Assembly: GCF_030145185.1 (NCBI RefSeq) | Contig: NZ_JAQYWB010000003.1 | Location: 62,001 to 126,000, forward strand | DNA: 64,000 nt | Origin: Desulfoluna sp. | Lineage (GTDB): Bacteria; Desulfobacterota; Desulfobacteria; Desulfobacterales; Desulfolunaceae | Direction: 5' to 3' | In this document: piece after piece, positions 1,429-60,179 of the stretch | Layout: every line of letters starts with the position of its first letter | Position numbering within the stretch: the stretch's first letter is position 1 | Notes under the pieces: generated by a model | Told to the model about the DNA's origin: nothing | Database searches by the model: none | What the model saw: only the letters and a program-made list of their open reading frames with translations | Translations under genes and position numbers: made by a program

Positions 1429-1611
1429 GTATTTATCGGAGAAGTAAGGGTCATTCTGGGGTCCTGGTCATTAACCTGAGAAAGGGTCTGGATTCAGACG
1501 TTTCATCCTTCCTCCGGGTGACCGCAATCTTTTTAAAATTCGCTTGTCAAACCTATCGAAAAAAATGGGCTAAAGTCCGCTGGAGGCACAAGCTGAATAG
1601 GAACTGTTATT

Positions 1612-1978
1612 GTAACTATTCAGCGATCCATTTTTTCTTTATGGCCCCCGGTCTGACATCACCCTACGCTTTTCGTCTTTCCCGCGCAGGCGGGAATCCA
1701 TGTATGAAAATCCGTATCGTCCTCATTTTTACAATGACGTACCGGGTGGATGCATAGGGGTGCGCCGTGCGCACCGTCAGGCGTATCGTAAACCGGAAAC
1801 ACCGCATTTTGAAATAAGACTCGTGGTCATCGTTAACTTGCGAGGCTGAGGGTCCTCTCTACGGTAGAAGGTGCGGGAGCCGCACCCTAGGCGGTGATGA
1901 AAAGACGCGACGTATTGGCATTTGAATCTTTCTGTCATTTGCCTCGAACGACCTGGCGAAGGCAAGCTGAATAGTTAC
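1612..1978. mobile_element. MITE-like element, copy 1 (367 bp)
   Basis: Bounded by the exact 13-bp terminal inverted repeat GTAACTATTCAGC (1612-1624) and GCTGAATAGTTAC (1966-1978), and flanked by the 8-bp direct duplication CTGTTATT (1604-1611 and 1979-1986). It encodes no transposase. Inside are a TTTCCCGCGCAGGCGGGAA hairpin and a GGTGCGG-gag-CCGCACC hairpin (1870-1886). It is nearly identical to 38726-39081. GTAA ends with an 8-bp duplication match the IS66 family, so a non-autonomous IS66-type element is inferred. Confidence 0.85.
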
Positions 1979-2324
1979 CTGTTATTTAATGTTTGGTCTT
2001 TGCTGAATCGGTCGCAGCTTAAGTCTTGCAGCAGAGCGATTTTTTCCTGAAATTGGTTTTTAGCTAAAATTGACTGGATCGTCGTTTTGATCCATGCTCC
2101 TGCCCCCGTTTTGTGAACGGTCCCTTCTTTTAATATCGTGTATTCCCTGTCTGTCATGAGTTCGAGGTTCCCCTTCAGGGCAGATGGTTGAGCGTTTTTC
2201 TTGCACTTTATCGCATGCTCTGCTTTTTCTTATTGTGCAATTTTTGTGGGGGGCGAAGCGCTCAGTATGCCTTTTTTGTGCGGGACGTCAGTGTGCCCGA
2301 AATGATGGCAAAAGCAAAAATGCC

Positions 2325-2663: not shown

Positions 2664-2750
2664 CTCTGCCGGGGGCCAAATTTTTATCAATTTGTATGAG
2701 CTGAGCTTGATAAGCAGGTCTTAATGCATATTTCAGATTTAGATCGAACC

Positions 2751-2784
2751 TGCTTTCAAGGTGGCTCACCTTGTCGCCGGAGGC
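2751..2784 (+). repeat. Dispersed palindromic repeat, copy at 2.75 kb
   Basis: One copy of an intergenic repeat with consensus GCTTTCAAGGTGGCACACCTT then GCCGCCGGAGGC. It contains AAGGTG-nnn-CACCTT symmetry and is followed by a T-run (ATTTTTT). The text before it (CTGCCGGGGGC... at about 2666) matches the interior of the element at 13270-13489, so this may be a decayed relative lacking its outer ends. Confidence 0.75.
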
Positions 2785-2860
2785 AATTTTTTGGGTCAAC
2801 TTATTATGTGTTCGTTCCTTAGCGGTGTCGCCGCATCGGAGGCATACGCAGAATCGTAAC

Positions 2861-13259: not shown

Positions 13260-13269
13260 CGTTTTTTCA

Positions 13270-13489
13270 GTAACTATTCAGCTTGTGCCTCCGGCGGCCC
13301 GGCGGCCCTGCCGGGGGCTAAACTTTTGAAAAGTTTAACAAACAGATCTTAAGAATTATCCTCGATTAAATTCCAGTTTAAAAGCGGATGTGATTTGCTC
13401 CGAGGAGCGAAGGGAAAAACGCATCCGTAACTTGCTTTCAAGGTGGCACACCTTGCCGCCGGAGGCTTTTTTAGGTGCTGAATAGTTAC
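13270..13489. mobile_element. MITE-like element, short type (220 bp)
   Basis: It has the same 13-bp terminal inverted repeats as the two longer elements (GTAACTATTCAGC 13270-13282, GCTGAATAGTTAC 13477-13489), with a second nested pair GCCTCCGGCGGC / GCCGCCGGAGGC inside. Flanks are TTTTTTCA and TTTTTTCT, a 7-of-8 match to a target duplication. The right half contains one copy of the dispersed palindromic repeat (13433-13466). No coding capacity. The interior is unlike the 367-bp type, so two subfamilies share ends. Confidence 0.8.
13433..13466 (+). repeat. Dispersed palindromic repeat inside the short MITE
   Basis: A consensus-quality copy of the GCTTTCAAGGTGGCACACCTT / GCCGCCGGAGGC repeat, followed by TTTTTT. 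Its position inside the element suggests that other copies are element remnants. Confidence 0.8.
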
Positions 13490-13611
13490 TTTTTTCTTCG
13501 GCTGACATATGGAAAAGGCAGGCCTTCATCGGCGGGGTGGCGCCCCGTGGAAGCGGGTTTGCGCAAGCACTGTTCCTGTCTCCCCGCCCATTCTCGGTGA
13601 GCCCTGTTTCC

Positions 13612-36431: not shown

Positions 36432-36470
36432 GTCTCTGCCTGTTACGGTAATTTTTTTGAGAACAGTCAA

Positions 36471-36510
36471 CCTGATTTCAAGGTGGCACACCTTGCCATC
36501 GAAGCCTTTT
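36471..36510 (+). repeat. Dispersed palindromic repeat, copy before dut
   Basis: TTTCAAGGTGGCACACCTT then a diverged GCCATCGAAGCC and TTTTTT. It lies 32 bases before the dut start. Confidence 0.7.
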
Positions 36511-36541
36511 TTATCCACATGATGCAATCCTGGAGTCAACA

Positions 36542-37000: not shown

Positions 37001-37302
37001 AGGTTCGCAAATGCTCCGTCCCTTCGTTCCTCAGGTCTGTCACATGTGCTGACGGGCGGCACCCGTACCTCGGTGTGGGTGACTCCAGCTTCATGGGTCC
37101 TATCCATTTTGGTGAGTGCCCGAGCATGCTGCACCATGTTACACGAAACCCGAATGCGGACGCATTTCAGTCCAACGTACCGAGAGCCAACGCGCATTCG
37201 CAAACCCGCTTTCAACGTGGCACACCTTGCCGCCGGAGGCTTGTTTTTTCCGATTTTTAACCATAGAAGGCAATGCCCTTTATCTATTTGGAATGATTTT
37301 TT
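37001..37302. other. 300-base spacer between dut and the MBL gene
   Basis: No gene is supported. It holds one copy of the dispersed palindromic repeat near its right end and otherwise nothing recognised. Confidence 0.5.
37206..37240 (+). repeat. Dispersed palindromic repeat, copy at 37.2 kb
   Basis: CGCTTTCAACGTGGCACACCTT followed by GCCGCCGGAGGC and TTGTTTTTT, 62 bases before the MBL hydrolase gene. Confidence 0.75.
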
Positions 37303-38103: not shown

Positions 38104-38140
38104 GAGGCCCTCCTCGGGGTGCCTTCGGCTCAAAAAAAAT

Positions 38141-38176
38141 GCCTCCGGCGGCAAGGTGAGCCACCTTGAAAGCGGG
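38141..38176 (-). repeat. Dispersed palindromic repeat, reverse copy at 38.1 kb
   Basis: Reads GCCTCCGGCGGC then AAGGTGAGCCACCTTGAAAGC. On the minus strand it is followed by ATTTTTTTTG. It lies 37 bases after the MBL gene stop. Confidence 0.75.
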
Positions 38177-38623
38177 TTACCGCTGGGTTTGCCTCTCGTT
38201 CATCGAGTCAAATCCCAGCGGTAGTTTATCCATCCATTGTCTCGTTATTTATTTGCGCCAGCCGTAACCCTTCAACTTCATCCTGGCTCTGCCTGGTCTC
38301 TTTTTTAAAAAAGTTTCGCAAAAACGTTTCAGCCCATGTCACATCGACACGGTGACCAAAGGTCAGACCCTTTATACGGTTTCCTTCTTCATCGCCCCTG
38401 CCGTATCGGTGTGTGGCGATTGGGTTGCGTGGGCTGAAGAGTGACCGCCAGCCTTACGTTCCCCTCGCTTCATACTCCCCCCCCCCCATGGGTTCCGCCT
38501 TTTTTAAGATGAATCTCTGTTCGGCGAAAAGGTGTCTAAAAGCCAGTACGCAAAAAAAACGATCATTTCAAATTATTGGCGCGTTCTATAGATGACCTGT
38601 GAGAGGTTTTTGTCAATTTTCTT

Positions 38624-38643
38624 ATAAACGAGCGATCGTTTAT
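38624..38643. promoter_or_regulatory. TetR-operator-like palindrome, Y copy 1
   Basis: ATAAACGA-gcga-TCGTTTAT, perfect 8-bp arms with a 4-base spacer. Same pattern as the site upstream of tetR at 40657-40678. Confidence 0.5.
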
Positions 38644-38725
38644 GGGCGATTGTGCAGAAAATAGCGGGCTCAACAGGGGAGGGCGAGGGCTCGACCGAGA
38701 AAATGGTACAATCGTTCCGTCTTTT

Positions 38726-39081
38726 GTAACTATTCAGCTATCCATTTTGTCTTTATCGCCCAGGTCTGACAGCACCCTACGCTTTTCGTCTTTCCCGCGC
38801 AGGCGGGAATCCATGTATGAAAATCCGTATCGTCCTCATTTTTACAATGAAGTACCGGGTGGATGCGCCGTGCGCACCGTCAGGCGTATCGTAAACCGGA
38901 AACACCGCATGTTGAACTAAGACTCGTGGTCATCGTGAACTTGCGAGGCCGATGGTCCTCTCTACGGTAGAAGGTGCGGGAGCCGCACCCTACGCGGTGA
39001 TGAAAAGACGTGGTGTATTGGCACTTGAATCTCTCTGTCATTTGCCTCGAACGACCTGGCGAAGGCAAGCTGAATAGTTAC
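38726..39081. mobile_element. MITE-like element, copy 2 (356 bp)
   Basis: Has the same ends as the element at 1612-1978 (GTAACTATTCAGC 38726-38738, GCTGAATAGTTAC 39069-39081) and a nearly identical interior. It is flanked by CGTCTTTT on both sides (38718-38725 and 39082-39089). The uninterrupted site ATCGTTCCGTCTTTTTTAAG occurs at 39866-39885, which directly shows that the 8 bases were duplicated on insertion. No coding capacity. Confidence 0.9.
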
Positions 39082-39208
39082 CGTCTTTTTTAAGATGAAT
39101 CACTGTTCGGCGAAAAGAGGTCTAAAAGTCGGTGGGCAAAAAAAGATATTAGTTCAGTGGATTGACGGTTTTTTGGATGTCTCGTGATCGGTTTCTGTCA
39201 ATTTTTCT

Positions 39209-39228
39209 ATAAATGAACAATCGTTTAT
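39209..39228. promoter_or_regulatory. TetR-operator-like palindrome, Y copy 2
   Basis: ATAAATGA-acaa-TCGTTTAT, one mismatch between arms. Located in the middle decayed copy. Confidence 0.45.
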
Positions 39229-39374
39229 GGGCAATTGGTCATAAAAATAGAGGGCGCAACAGGGGAGGGATGCCAGTCGATTCAGGAGACGGTCACCGCA
39301 GCGGGCAAGATGCAGGCCGCACGGGAAGGGCGAGGGCGGGACCGAGAAAACGGTACAGAGCGTGATGCCCTTTT

Positions 39375-39409
39375 GTCTCCGGCGGCAAGGTGAGCCATCT
39401 TCAAAGCGT
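39375..39409 (-). repeat. Dispersed palindromic repeat, reverse copy at 39.4 kb
   Basis: CTCCGGCGGC then AAGGTGAGCCATCTTCAAAGC. It opens the second X block. Confidence 0.65.
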
Positions 39410-39535
39410 GTGACCGCTGGGGTTTGATATTCATCCATTGTCTCATTACTTATTTACGCCAGCCGTAACCCTTCAGCTTCATTCTGTCTTTGCCTGGTCT
39501 CTTTTTTAAAAAAGTTTCGCAACAACGTTTCAGCC

Positions 39536-39815
39536 CGTAGGGTGCGGCTCCCGCACCGTTAACGTCACGCAAACCACTGGCCCCGTCTCAACACGTATCA
39601 CAGAATTCGGCGTTGCAGGTTTATCGGACGTTAAGCGGCGCGTACGGTGACATGGTTTCCTTCTTCATCGACCCTGCCGTATCGGTGTGTGGCGATTGGG
39701 TGGCATGGGCTGAAGAGTGACCGCCAGCCTTACGTTCCCCCCGCGTCATAACCCCCATGGGTTCCCGCCTTCGCGGGAAAGACGAAGACAGCGCGGGAAA
39801 GACGAAGACAGGGCG
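39536..39815. repeat. Small hairpin and tandem repeats
   Basis: A GGTGCGG-ctc-CCGCACC-type hairpin at about 39541-39560 is also found inside both long MITEs. A 20-base unit containing GCGGGAAAGACGAAGACAG is tandemly duplicated at about 39775-39814. Confidence 0.5.
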
Positions 39816-39998
39816 GAGTGATGGCTCCGGTCGCGCTGTTTGACCGTTCGGCTCTTGCCCCCTTATCGTTCCGTCTTTTTTAAGATGAATAAGTGTTCGG
39901 CGAAAAGAAGTCTAAAAGTCGGTGGGCGAAAAAAGACATTAGTTCAGTGGATTGACGGTTTTTTGGATGTCTTGTGGTCGGGTTCTGTCAATTTTTTT

Positions 39999-40018
39999 AT
40001 AAATGAACAATCATTTAT
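39999..40018. promoter_or_regulatory. TetR-operator-like palindrome, Y copy 3
   Basis: ATAAATGA-acaa-TCATTTAT, perfect 8-bp arms, 54 bases beyond the tetR stop codon. Confidence 0.5.
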
Positions 40019-40071
40019 GGGCGATTGATCAAAAAAATGGAGGGCACAACAGGGGAGGAATGCTTGTGGGT

Positions 40072-40647
40072 TCAGGAGATGGCTACCGCGTCCCAGGCAC
40101 ATGAGAAGGCCGCTTCGAGGCCCTCATCGTCCATGGCGGTGCCTTCTTTCACATGCTGCTTTGCCAGCTGGGTGAGGGGATGGAAGGCGAAGGCCAGGAG
40201 AAGGTCCAGGGAGACCGGTTTGAGAACCCCCGCATCCTGCCCGCGTTCGATGAGGTGGGTGAAGGGGGCAAAGAAGCCCTCTGCATCCTCTTTTTCGACG
40301 GCATCCACGATGGGGGCGTTGCAGAACTGCTCGGCGAACACGAAATGGTCCGGGTAGGCGAGGTAATAGGCGTAGAGGTTTTCCCACATCAGGCGAAAGG
40401 CGTCCCGGATCTCCAGGTCGTCATCGAGGCTGTCAAGAATCGCACGGCTCATTTCCCGTTTGACCTCCACATAAAGAGTGATCAGGAGGTGGTCCTTGTT
40501 CTCGAAGTAGATGTAGATGGTGGCTGGCGAGACGCCGGCTTCCCGAGCGATTTTGGACATGGAGGTGTGGGCCAGGCCATAGGTGTTGATCAGCACCATG
40601 GCGCTGTTGAGGATTGCTTCTCGTTTGCTCTCGTCTTTGGGTCTCAT
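40072..40647 (-). CDS. TetR-family transcriptional regulator (locus 1)
   Basis: A 191-residue repressor-type protein. The N-terminal HTH spans about residues 8-55: REAILNSAMVLINTYGLAHTSMSKIAREAGVSPATIYIYFENKDHLL, closely fitting TetR_N. The C-terminal ligand domain is unassigned. An operator-like palindrome (ATTAAACGA-tcat-TCATTTAAT, 40657-40678) lies directly upstream, so autoregulation is likely. The TGAATGA/TCATTCA-like half sites recall those of fatty-acid-degradation TetR regulators; that is a hint, not proof. It lies 22 bases downstream of the HD-GYP gene but probably has its own promoter. Confidence 0.9.
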   Translation of the reverse strand: MRPKDESKREAILNSAMVLINTYGLAHTSMSKIAREAGVSPATIYIYFENKDHLLITLYVEVKREMSRAILDSLDDDLEIRDAFRLMWENLYAYYLAYPDHFVFAEQFCNAPIVDAVEKEDAEGFFAPFTHLIERGQDAGVLKPVSLDLLLAFAFHPLTQLAKQHVKEGTAMDDEGLEAAFSCAWDAVAIS

Positions 40648-40678: not shown

Positions 40679-41725
40679 GTCAAGGCTCGAAGGGGTAATG
40701 GCGGGTGTGGAATGATCCGCGAGTCGTTCTTTGATGGCAACAATGGCGTCTAAAACACTTATAAAACAGGGTATTAGATCCGGCGCAAAGAGTTTGCCCG
40801 ATTCATTCTGCATGTACTCCAGTGCCTTGGGGATGGACCATGCCTCTTTGTAGGGCCGCTTGGATGTCAGGGCGTCAAAGACATCAGCCACGGCCACGAT
40901 GCGGCCTTCGATGGGAATCTCTTCGCCTTTTAAGTGTCGGGGATAGCCACTGCCGTCCCAGCGCTCGTGATGACTGAGGGCAATGGATTTCGCCATCAGA
41001 AGAAGGGGGGAGGGGTTGTCTCCGATAATTTCAGCTCCGATTTTGGGATGGCGTTTCATGATCTGCCACTCTTCGGTGTTCAGGGAGGTTGTTTTCTGGA
41101 GGATGTTGTCCGGGATGCCGATTTTTCCGATATCATGCATGGGGGCAGCATTGTAAATACGATCCACCTCCACCTCGGGGAGGTCGATGGCTTCACCCAG
41201 GATGCGGGTGTAGTGGCTCATGCGCAGAATGTGGAGACCGGTCTCATCGTCTTTATACTCCGAGGCCCTTCCCAGCCGCTGGATGATCTCCAGGCGGGTG
41301 TTGTTGAGTTCAATGGTGCGTGCTTTCACTTTGGCGTCCAGGACCCTGTTCTGGTTATACAGGGCCAGGTGAGTGACGATGCGTGCCTTGAGAATGGCTG
41401 GGCTGATGGGCTTGGTGATGTAATCCGATGCTCCGATTTCGAGCCCGGTTTTTTCATCTTCCATCTCTGCCATGGCGGTGACGAAAATAACGGGAATGTT
41501 GCGGGTGCGAGGATCCTTTTTTAGAGCTCGGCAGGTTTGGTAGCCATTCATCTCGGGCATCATCACATCCAGAAGAATGAGATCGGGAAGTTGGCTTGCG
41601 GCCAGGGTCAGAGCCTTGAATCCGTTTTCGGCGAAAATCAGGTTGTAATGGGCTTTGAGGATGTGTTTGATGACCTCTCGATTGATGGGCTCATCATCTA
41701 CGGTTAAAATGGTCCATTTGTCCAC
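40670..41725 (-). CDS. Response regulator with HD-GYP domain (protein 2)
   Basis: Cytoplasmic REC-HD-GYP protein of 351 residues, expected to hydrolyse cyclic di-GMP when phosphorylated. The REC domain (about 3-120) has VDDEP, phosphoacceptor LDVMMPEMNGYQ and DYITKPI. A coiled linker follows. The HD-GYP domain (about 150-340) has AAPMHDIGKIGIPD and LSHHERWDGSGYPRHL, with all signature residues. The GTG at 41725 is used as start because CAGGAG lies about 8 bases upstream and the extension to 41800 is not conserved. It follows its paralog by 75 bases. Confidence 0.93.
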   Translation of the reverse strand: MDKWTILTVDDEPINREVIKHILKAHYNLIFAENGFKALTLAASQLPDLILLDVMMPEMNGYQTCRALKKDPRTRNIPVIFVTAMAEMEDEKTGLEIGASDYITKPISPAILKARIVTHLALYNQNRVLDAKVKARTIELNNTRLEIIQRLGRASEYKDDETGLHILRMSHYTRILGEAIDLPEVEVDRIYNAAPMHDIGKIGIPDNILQKTTSLNTEEWQIMKRHPKIGAEIIGDNPSPLLLMAKSIALSHHERWDGSGYPRHLKGEEIPIEGRIVAVADVFDALTSKRPYKEAWSIPKALEYMQNESGKLFAPDLIPCFISVLDAIVAIKERLADHSTPAITPSSLDIK

Positions 41726-41800
41726 GTCGGGTCTCCTGCTTGAGGGGGCGGTTTCCAGTAAGCGACTGGGTTGTTCTGACAGGCACAGGTGGGGGCGCAA

Positions 41801-42820
41801 TTATTCTGCATCGCCCCACTTGGTCAGAACCCACTGGAGATGTTTCTTAATTTTCAGGAAGGCCGTCACCAGCGTGGGGTCAAAGTGGGCTCCGGCCTCT
41901 TCTGCGATGTGTTTCAGGGCCTTCTCTATAGGCCAGGCTTCCTTGTATGGGCGTTTGCTGGTGAGGGCATCGAACACATCTGCCAGGGCGACGATGCGTC
42001 CTTCGTAGGGGATCTTTTCGCCGGCCAGCCCCTCGGGGTAGCCGGTGCCGTTCCATTTTTCATGGTGGGTCAGGGCGATGATCCGGGCGTGTTTCAGTAG
42101 CTCCGAGTAGTCCTCACCGATGATCTCAGCTCCGATCTGGGGATGGCGTTTCATGGTGGCCCATTCCTCCGCGTTCAGGGGGCCTTTTTTTTGGAGAATG
42201 GAGTCAGGAATGCCAATTTTTCCGACATCGTGCATGGGTGCCGCGTTGAAGAGGCGGGCCGCCTCTTTTTGAGAGATTCCAGCCGAGAGGGCGGTCATAC
42301 GAGCGTAGTGACTCATTCGGATGATGTGGGCACCGGTTTCGTCATCTTTATACTCCGAGGCCCGACCCAGGCGTTGAATGACTTTCAGGCGGCTGGTCTG
42401 CAGTTCATGGGTGCGCCTGTCCACGGCCTTTTCGAGCTCTCGGTTCTGGTTGTAAAGGGCCAGGTGGGTGGCGACCCGTGCCTTTAAAATCGGTGGGCTG
42501 ATGGGCTTGGTGATGTAGTCCACGGCACCGAGTTGAAACCCCTTCTTTTCATCATCCACGTGGCCCATGGCGGTGACAAAAATGATGGGTATCCGTCGGG
42601 TTCTTGGGTCTTCCTTCAAGGCTCTGCAAAGCTCGTATCCATCGAGTCCGGGCATCATCACGTCCAGAAGCAGAAGATCCGGCACGTGTTTGAATGCGGC
42701 CTGAAGTCCTTCCTCGCCGTTGGTGGCGAAGGCGAGGTCATAGTGCTCCTTCAAGATGACCCGGATGATCTGAAGATTGGTGGGTTCGTCATCCACGGCG
42801 AGTATTTTATGCCTCTCCAT
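41801..42820 (-). CDS. Response regulator with HD-GYP domain (protein 1)
   Basis: A 339-residue REC-HD-GYP protein, paralogous to the next gene downstream. The REC domain has VDDEPTNLQII, phosphoacceptor LDVMMPGLDGYE and DYITKPI (about 5-115). The HD-GYP domain has AAPMHDVGKIGIPD and LTHHEKWNGTGYPEGL, so c-di-GMP phosphodiesterase activity is expected. Its start overlaps the end of the histidine kinase gene by 14 bases, strong evidence that it is controlled by that kinase and co-translated with it. Confidence 0.94.
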   Translation of the reverse strand: MERHKILAVDDEPTNLQIIRVILKEHYDLAFATNGEEGLQAAFKHVPDLLLLDVMMPGLDGYELCRALKEDPRTRRIPIIFVTAMGHVDDEKKGFQLGAVDYITKPISPPILKARVATHLALYNQNRELEKAVDRRTHELQTSRLKVIQRLGRASEYKDDETGAHIIRMSHYARMTALSAGISQKEAARLFNAAPMHDVGKIGIPDSILQKKGPLNAEEWATMKRHPQIGAEIIGEDYSELLKHARIIALTHHEKWNGTGYPEGLAGEKIPYEGRIVALADVFDALTSKRPYKEAWPIEKALKHIAEEAGAHFDPTLVTAFLKIKKHLQWVLTKWGDAE

Positions 42821-60001: not shown

Positions 60002-60124
60002 GGTAGACAGCCTCTGTGGAACGAAAAGGTCCTCCGATGACAAGGGGGTAAGAAAGGGGTGCGCAAGGGTACCCTTATGTGACGTGTTTTTAAGACCTGT
60101 TTGTTAAATTTTTCAAACGTTTAT

Positions 60125-60145
60125 CCCCCGGCAGGGCCGCCGGAG
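60125..60145 (+). repeat. 21-bp direct repeat, left of tetR
   Basis: A GC-rich unit starting CCCCCGGCAGGGCC and ending GCCGGAG, identical to 60881-60901. It continues into GGCATAAGCTGAATAG, a decayed end of the MITE family. Confidence 0.85.
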
Positions 60146-60179
60146 GCATAAGCTGAATAGATAAGGATAAGAAAAAGAC

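Follow-up and report, generated by a model that had tools for sequence, protein, structure and literature searches.

What are the short, gene-less sequences that recur between identical ends in a Desulfoluna genome, and what moves them? The question is raised by a stretch of 64,000 nucleotides of contig NZ_JAQYWB010000003.1 (positions 62,001 to 126,000; hereafter the window), in which the 13-mer GTAACTATTCAGC and its complement bound three elements, at 1612-1978, 13270-13489 and 38726-39081. With up to 2 mismatches allowed, the window contains 11 copies of the 13-mer, where 0.45 would be expected. Comparison of sequences makes it very probable that the window elements are MITEs, non-autonomous and moved in trans by a transposase that belongs to the ISBst12 (single-ORF, TnpC-only) group of the IS66 family. 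This explanation is preferred because the same 13-bp ends are found on autonomous IS, 8-bp duplications occur on both, an empty site is present and unrelated interiors lie behind the same ends.

The coordinates and the exact 13-bp ends of these three elements, as given in a first-pass annotation of the window, are verified. Two of them belong to subfamily A and have exact 8-bp duplications: the element at 1612-1978 (367 bp, + strand, feature 1604..1986), with CTGTTATT at 1604-1611 and 1979-1986, and that at 38726-39081 (356 bp, + strand, feature 38718..39089), with CGTCTTTT at 38718-38725 and 39082-39089. The subfamily-B element at 13270-13489 (220 bp, + strand, feature 13262..13497) is flanked by TTTTTTCA and TTTTTTCT, which agree in 7 of 8 letters. 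The proposal that at least two subfamilies use the same ends holds, and a third, C, is found besides. Its copies, overlooked in the initial count of three intact elements, lie at 39465-39721 (257 bp, + strand, feature 39457..39729; ends GTAACCCTTCAGC and GTCACTCTTCAGC) and, internally deleted, at 38264-38445 (+ strand, feature 38256..38453; left end GTAACCCTTCAAC). Both C copies have the duplications CGCCAGCC; as the DNA around them is a tandem duplication and their flanks are the same, a single insertion could account for both.

Two decayed ends had also been reported, and the end search finds both, although at shifted positions. The relic right end of a subfamily-B element (GCTGAATAGGAAC; - strand, 1577..1604) is at 1592-1604 instead of 1577-1600, and the end TTATCTATTCAGC of a truncated, decayed subfamily-B element (- strand, 60087..60164) is at 60152-60164 instead of 60140-60152. 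The A element at 1612-1978 inserted 7 bp from the B relic, and its duplication consequently includes the relic's last C. The statement that none of the elements encodes a protein holds insofar as the reading frames of the window elements reach 77 codons at most, are mainly of 30-65 and have received no functional assignment. Inspection of these reading frames revealed no IS66 transposase gene, and the window elements are therefore non-autonomous derivatives and not IS66 elements. An Rfam search of the window gave 0 matches.

For the element at 38726-39081, the window itself provides proof of insertion. Its flanks, joined minus one CGTCTTTT, match a paralogous repeat at ~39864-40036 across the junction (CGTTCCGTCTTTTTTAAGATGAAT), and the resulting paralogous empty site (39864..39900, + strand) contains the flank sequence with a single CGTCTTTT. 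Around it, at 38220-40090, intergenic segments are in tandem repeat with spacings of 586, 790 and about 1200 bp, and three MITE copies lie inside. Farther along, at 41010-42682, direct tandem repeats at 1095 bp spacing (73-76% identical) occur within ORFs and are probably a duplicated gene.

The ends are abundant throughout the genome (5.79 Mb, 152 contigs, 97% complete), with 313 copies at up to 1 mismatch against 3 for a reversed-pattern control. The first-pass annotation had proposed listing the flanks of end pairs genome-wide. A total of 109 end pairs was collected, a set that includes some pairs from other genomes and a few nested end combinations, and the duplication test was made on the 97 pairs no more than 700 bp apart. 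An exact 8-bp repeat flanks 35 of these 97 and a one-mismatch repeat 14, against 0.42 and 0.60 upon random re-pairing of flanks. When the repeat length is scanned from 2 to 12, the exact pairs number 7, 4, 2, 0, 0, 3, 35, 1, 0, 0 and 0; given this sharp peak, 8 bp stands alone as the duplication length. The elements thus counted are short (about 60-630 bp), lack a transposase gene, have terminal inverted repeats and a target duplication of constant length, and exist in many dispersed copies, as expected of MITEs; the remaining trait, ends in common with an autonomous IS, is found in other genera of the order and phylum. Two elements with both ends, L038 503-567 and L039 439-501, measure only 63-65 bp, and one has a near-perfect 8-bp duplication.

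Behind these ends lie several interiors. The subfamily catalogue covers 178 of the 313 ends and assigns 74 to B (212-228 bp), 58 to A (about 365 bp, plus a 632-bp form), 13 to D (about 310 bp) and 8 to C, while 17 match a known subfamily only further in and 8 match none. Searches with the A and B elements give 52 and 58 matches in the genome, with mean identities among copies of 94.6% for A and 84.7% for B. In five congeners, the matches to A are all short and fall for the most part on a palindrome at A positions 59-91, and B is abundant in G001, G002 and G005 and present in G004 too. As A is confined to this species and B extends across congeners, A has expanded in this species and B earlier. 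The B interior is also found without ends, within repeats that occupy intergenic DNA in the genus, from which it seems that the ends enclosed host intergenic repeats to make B. The palindrome in A (window 1670-1702) is of the GCGGGAAT type and accounts for nearly all A-element matches in 70 of 292 genomes of the order. Another palindromic intergenic repeat, of ~45 bp (AACCTGCTTTCAAGGTGGCTCACCTTGTCGCCGGAGGC), lies at window positions 2747-2794, 13429-13472, 36469-36513, 37193-37246 and 38135-38190; it has at least tens of copies in several congeners, also without MITE ends.

Candidate partners of these MITEs exist outside the genus. Other genera of the order and phylum carry IS of 1.72-1.76 kb that have these ends and encode an ISBst12-like IS66 transposase, with exact 8-bp duplications in three genera. 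The initial suggestion of an IS66-type transposase acting in trans is supported by these elements; the full IS66 element with the same ends that it called for is found in other genera, but not in the own genome or genus. G017, from the same order, contains three 1758-bp IS with exact ends and exact 8-bp duplications (AAACAAGT, AGATATTT and AATAAAAA), whose single 471-aa gene matches PF03050 (1e-45) and NF033517 (7e-87), a single-ORF organisation read for this IS only. In the third copy, a 75-bp repeat starting with the IS left end (L131 228-302) directly precedes the full IS, and the left duplication lies beyond this repeat, 75 bp outside. G264 has a 1757-bp IS with the same ends, an exact duplication (AAAACGCC) and a transposase 70% identical to that of G017; G027 has one of 1718 bp, with one mismatch in the left end, an exact duplication (GGATTTTT) and a transposase 63% identical to that of G017. 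Six full-length transposases, 59-100% identical to the G017 one, form a single clade (branch support 100/99), and one or more such ends adjoin each of them; relatives at a greater distance (about 34-41% identical) have GTAACTATTCAGG or similar ends. A fragment match on C98 was set aside; it is a partial IS66 gene lying at the edge of its contig, and the end upstream of it is of the GTAAGCGTTCA type.

The partner IS have the GTAA-starting ends and the 8-bp duplication of IS66 elements, and the IS66 DDE transposase (TnpC) is the sole ORF of the G017 IS, as in the ISBst12 group. Within this group, ISDge4 has the ends GTGACTACTCAGCA and GTAACTGCTCAGCA and an 8-bp duplication, and its transposition has been observed, in a 2026 paper that is the first report of active transposition for the group (PMC12898284). 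The single ORF, the 8-bp duplication and ends near-identical to those of ISDge4 narrow the partner to the ISBst12 group. The likeness to this group thus lies in GTAACTxxTCAGC-like ends, duplication length and the single transposase ORF of the autonomous partner (PMC12898284 for ISDge4), whereas the window elements lack a transposase and have nothing but the 13-bp ends in common with the sampled IS. No long interior match exists between the two, which means that the MITEs did not arise from the sampled IS by simple internal deletion. The transposase would then recognise little beyond the 13-bp end, and almost any DNA between two ends, host intergenic repeats included, could be carried.

A counterpoint to this explanation is that the transposase of the G017 clade is found neither in the own genome, 97% complete as it is, nor in the five congeners, PF03050 and protein searches agreeing. 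In the own genome PF03050 detects only two copies, on contigs 43 and 92, both of another clade, and in the congeners one short relic, in G001. Exact ends nevertheless number 49-168 per genome in five of the six genus genomes, the congener G003 having none. The trans-acting driver is now absent, unassembled or unrecognised in this species. A variant of the main explanation, in which an IS66 driver still resides in this species and was left out of the draft assembly where contigs break at repeats, is rather unlikely. The assembly is indeed in 152 contigs, several of which end inside MITE copies, but not even a fragment of the clade is recovered by protein search or PF03050, known MITE interiors follow nearly every one of the 178 ends sampled, no captured transposase was seen behind the 8 unassigned ones, and a clade transposase is likewise lacking in G001, whose assembly is a single contig and contains 133 exact ends.

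Far less credence is given to the resident IS66 elements of contigs 43 and 92 as drivers moving the MITEs despite different ends. They are of the same family, and GTAA...TTCA is common to the ends of the contig-92 copy (GTAAGCGTTCACG) and of the MITEs (GTAACTATTCAGC); yet 5 of the 13 end positions differ, no MITEs with GTAAGCG-type ends came to notice in passing, and the transposases belong to another clade, only about 21% identical to the G017 one, so that these copies were rejected on clade and on the ends of the copy read (contig 92). It is slightly more improbable still that a transposase of another family acts on convergent ends, since the ends and the length of the duplication alike are those of the IS66 group and every autonomous same-end element read has an IS66 transposase; among the transposase families searched, nothing in favour of this reading came up. 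That the sequences are not transposons at all, but repeats of a hairpin or REP-like type that multiply in some other way, might be suggested by palindromic repeats of the interiors that also occur elsewhere in the genome or order; this idea can practically be discarded, being refuted by the 8-bp target duplications and the empty site, with the exact ends also against it. For MITEs mobilised in trans by an ISBst12-group transposase, the driver would still have been there in the recent past, when subfamily A multiplied in this species, and would since have been lost or have escaped assembly. Since no clade transposase is found in the own genome or congeners, the MITEs look orphaned, and a genus with many exact ends but no driver seen provides a case of MITEs apparently persisting after the loss of their parent.

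The placement of the elements follows a pattern of its own. Isolated insertions occupy an AT-rich, roughly palindromic target, WW, then AAA NN TTT, then WW. Tail-to-tail neighbours are present in four of the five genus genomes searched, and 13 such pairs have gaps of 7 bp (8 pairs, those on contigs 28 and 104 having the same 7-mer and perhaps not being independent), 8 bp (2), 9 bp (2) and 0 bp (1), with none at 10-30 bp; a further, decayed pair at gap 7 lies in the window (1592-1604 and 1612). A target profile was trained on 45 isolated sites from several genomes, the scored element being left out; it was made after the 7-bp spacing had been noticed, yet from neighbour-free sites. The mean score is 4.42 at gap 7, 3.45 at gap 8, where the element's own duplication is reused, and -0.55 at gap 9; real sites score 3.36 and the local background -6.5. 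Among 90 flanks, the best gap is 7 in 40 and 8 in 20.

A profile drawn from isolated insertions predicts the 7-bp spacing, which indicates that each insertion makes a preferred next target. The end (GTTA|C) followed by the duplication fits the target preference best one base inside the end, hence tail-to-tail neighbours 7 bp apart, and the tail-to-tail asymmetry results from this GTTA|C end. In mechanistic terms, the transposase would prefer AT-rich, roughly palindromic 8-bp targets, and a new insertion, as end plus duplication, would offer a preferred site for the next element. IS30-type elements target their own ends. Insertion beside existing ends is common to both systems, whereas here the gap is fixed at 7 bp and the end together with its duplication satisfies an AT-rich preference.

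MITEs as a kind are known; what is unusual here is the family (IS66), the copy number and the missing driver. Bacterial MITEs of known parent include MITECca01 of Cardinium (IS982 family, PMC9769881) and MITEPsy1 of Pseudomonas syringae (PMC3189936), which are likewise short, gene-less and multi-copy with IS ends, whereas the present ones have an IS66 parent group, several unrelated interiors on one end and no parent found in the genus. In the literature searched (ISfinder being outside this search), no paper containing the end sequence and no IS66-derived MITEs were found. The interest of the system lies in its IS66 parentage, in the number of unrelated interiors, in a driver that goes undetected in the genus and in a 7-bp spacing that the target profile predicts; the new element is that tail-to-tail neighbours stand mostly 7 bp apart, as predicted from the target profile of isolated insertions. 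With a clear end sequence, a target profile and full candidate partner IS at hand, trans-mobilisation, the minimal end and the 7-bp rule are directly testable.

Viral contigs contained no 13-bp end pair at MITE spacing. The same end pairs, 346-376 bp apart, were found in Methanosarcina, Muribaculaceae, Deltaproteobacteria, Deferribacteres, a Coxiella MAG and elsewhere; the interiors between them are unrelated, and exact 8-bp duplications often flank them. This spread fits an IS group with a conserved end that would repeatedly have given rise to MITEs. We tentatively extend it to a wider picture, plausible though somewhat less likely to be right than wrong, in which an IS66-type transposase requiring only 13 bp would repeatedly make unrelated sequences mobile in distant phyla, insertions would seed chains via the 7-bp target and MITEs would outlive their driver across the genus. 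One more arrangement was noted in passing: at L140 462-2878 and L132 151-4236, an ORF stands beside an IS66 transposase within GTAACTATTCAG(G/C) ends. The L132 ORF matches Pfam DruA, two IS66 transposases and this ORF being enclosed in one end pair with an 8-bp duplication, and the L140 ORF is similar to it in appearance.
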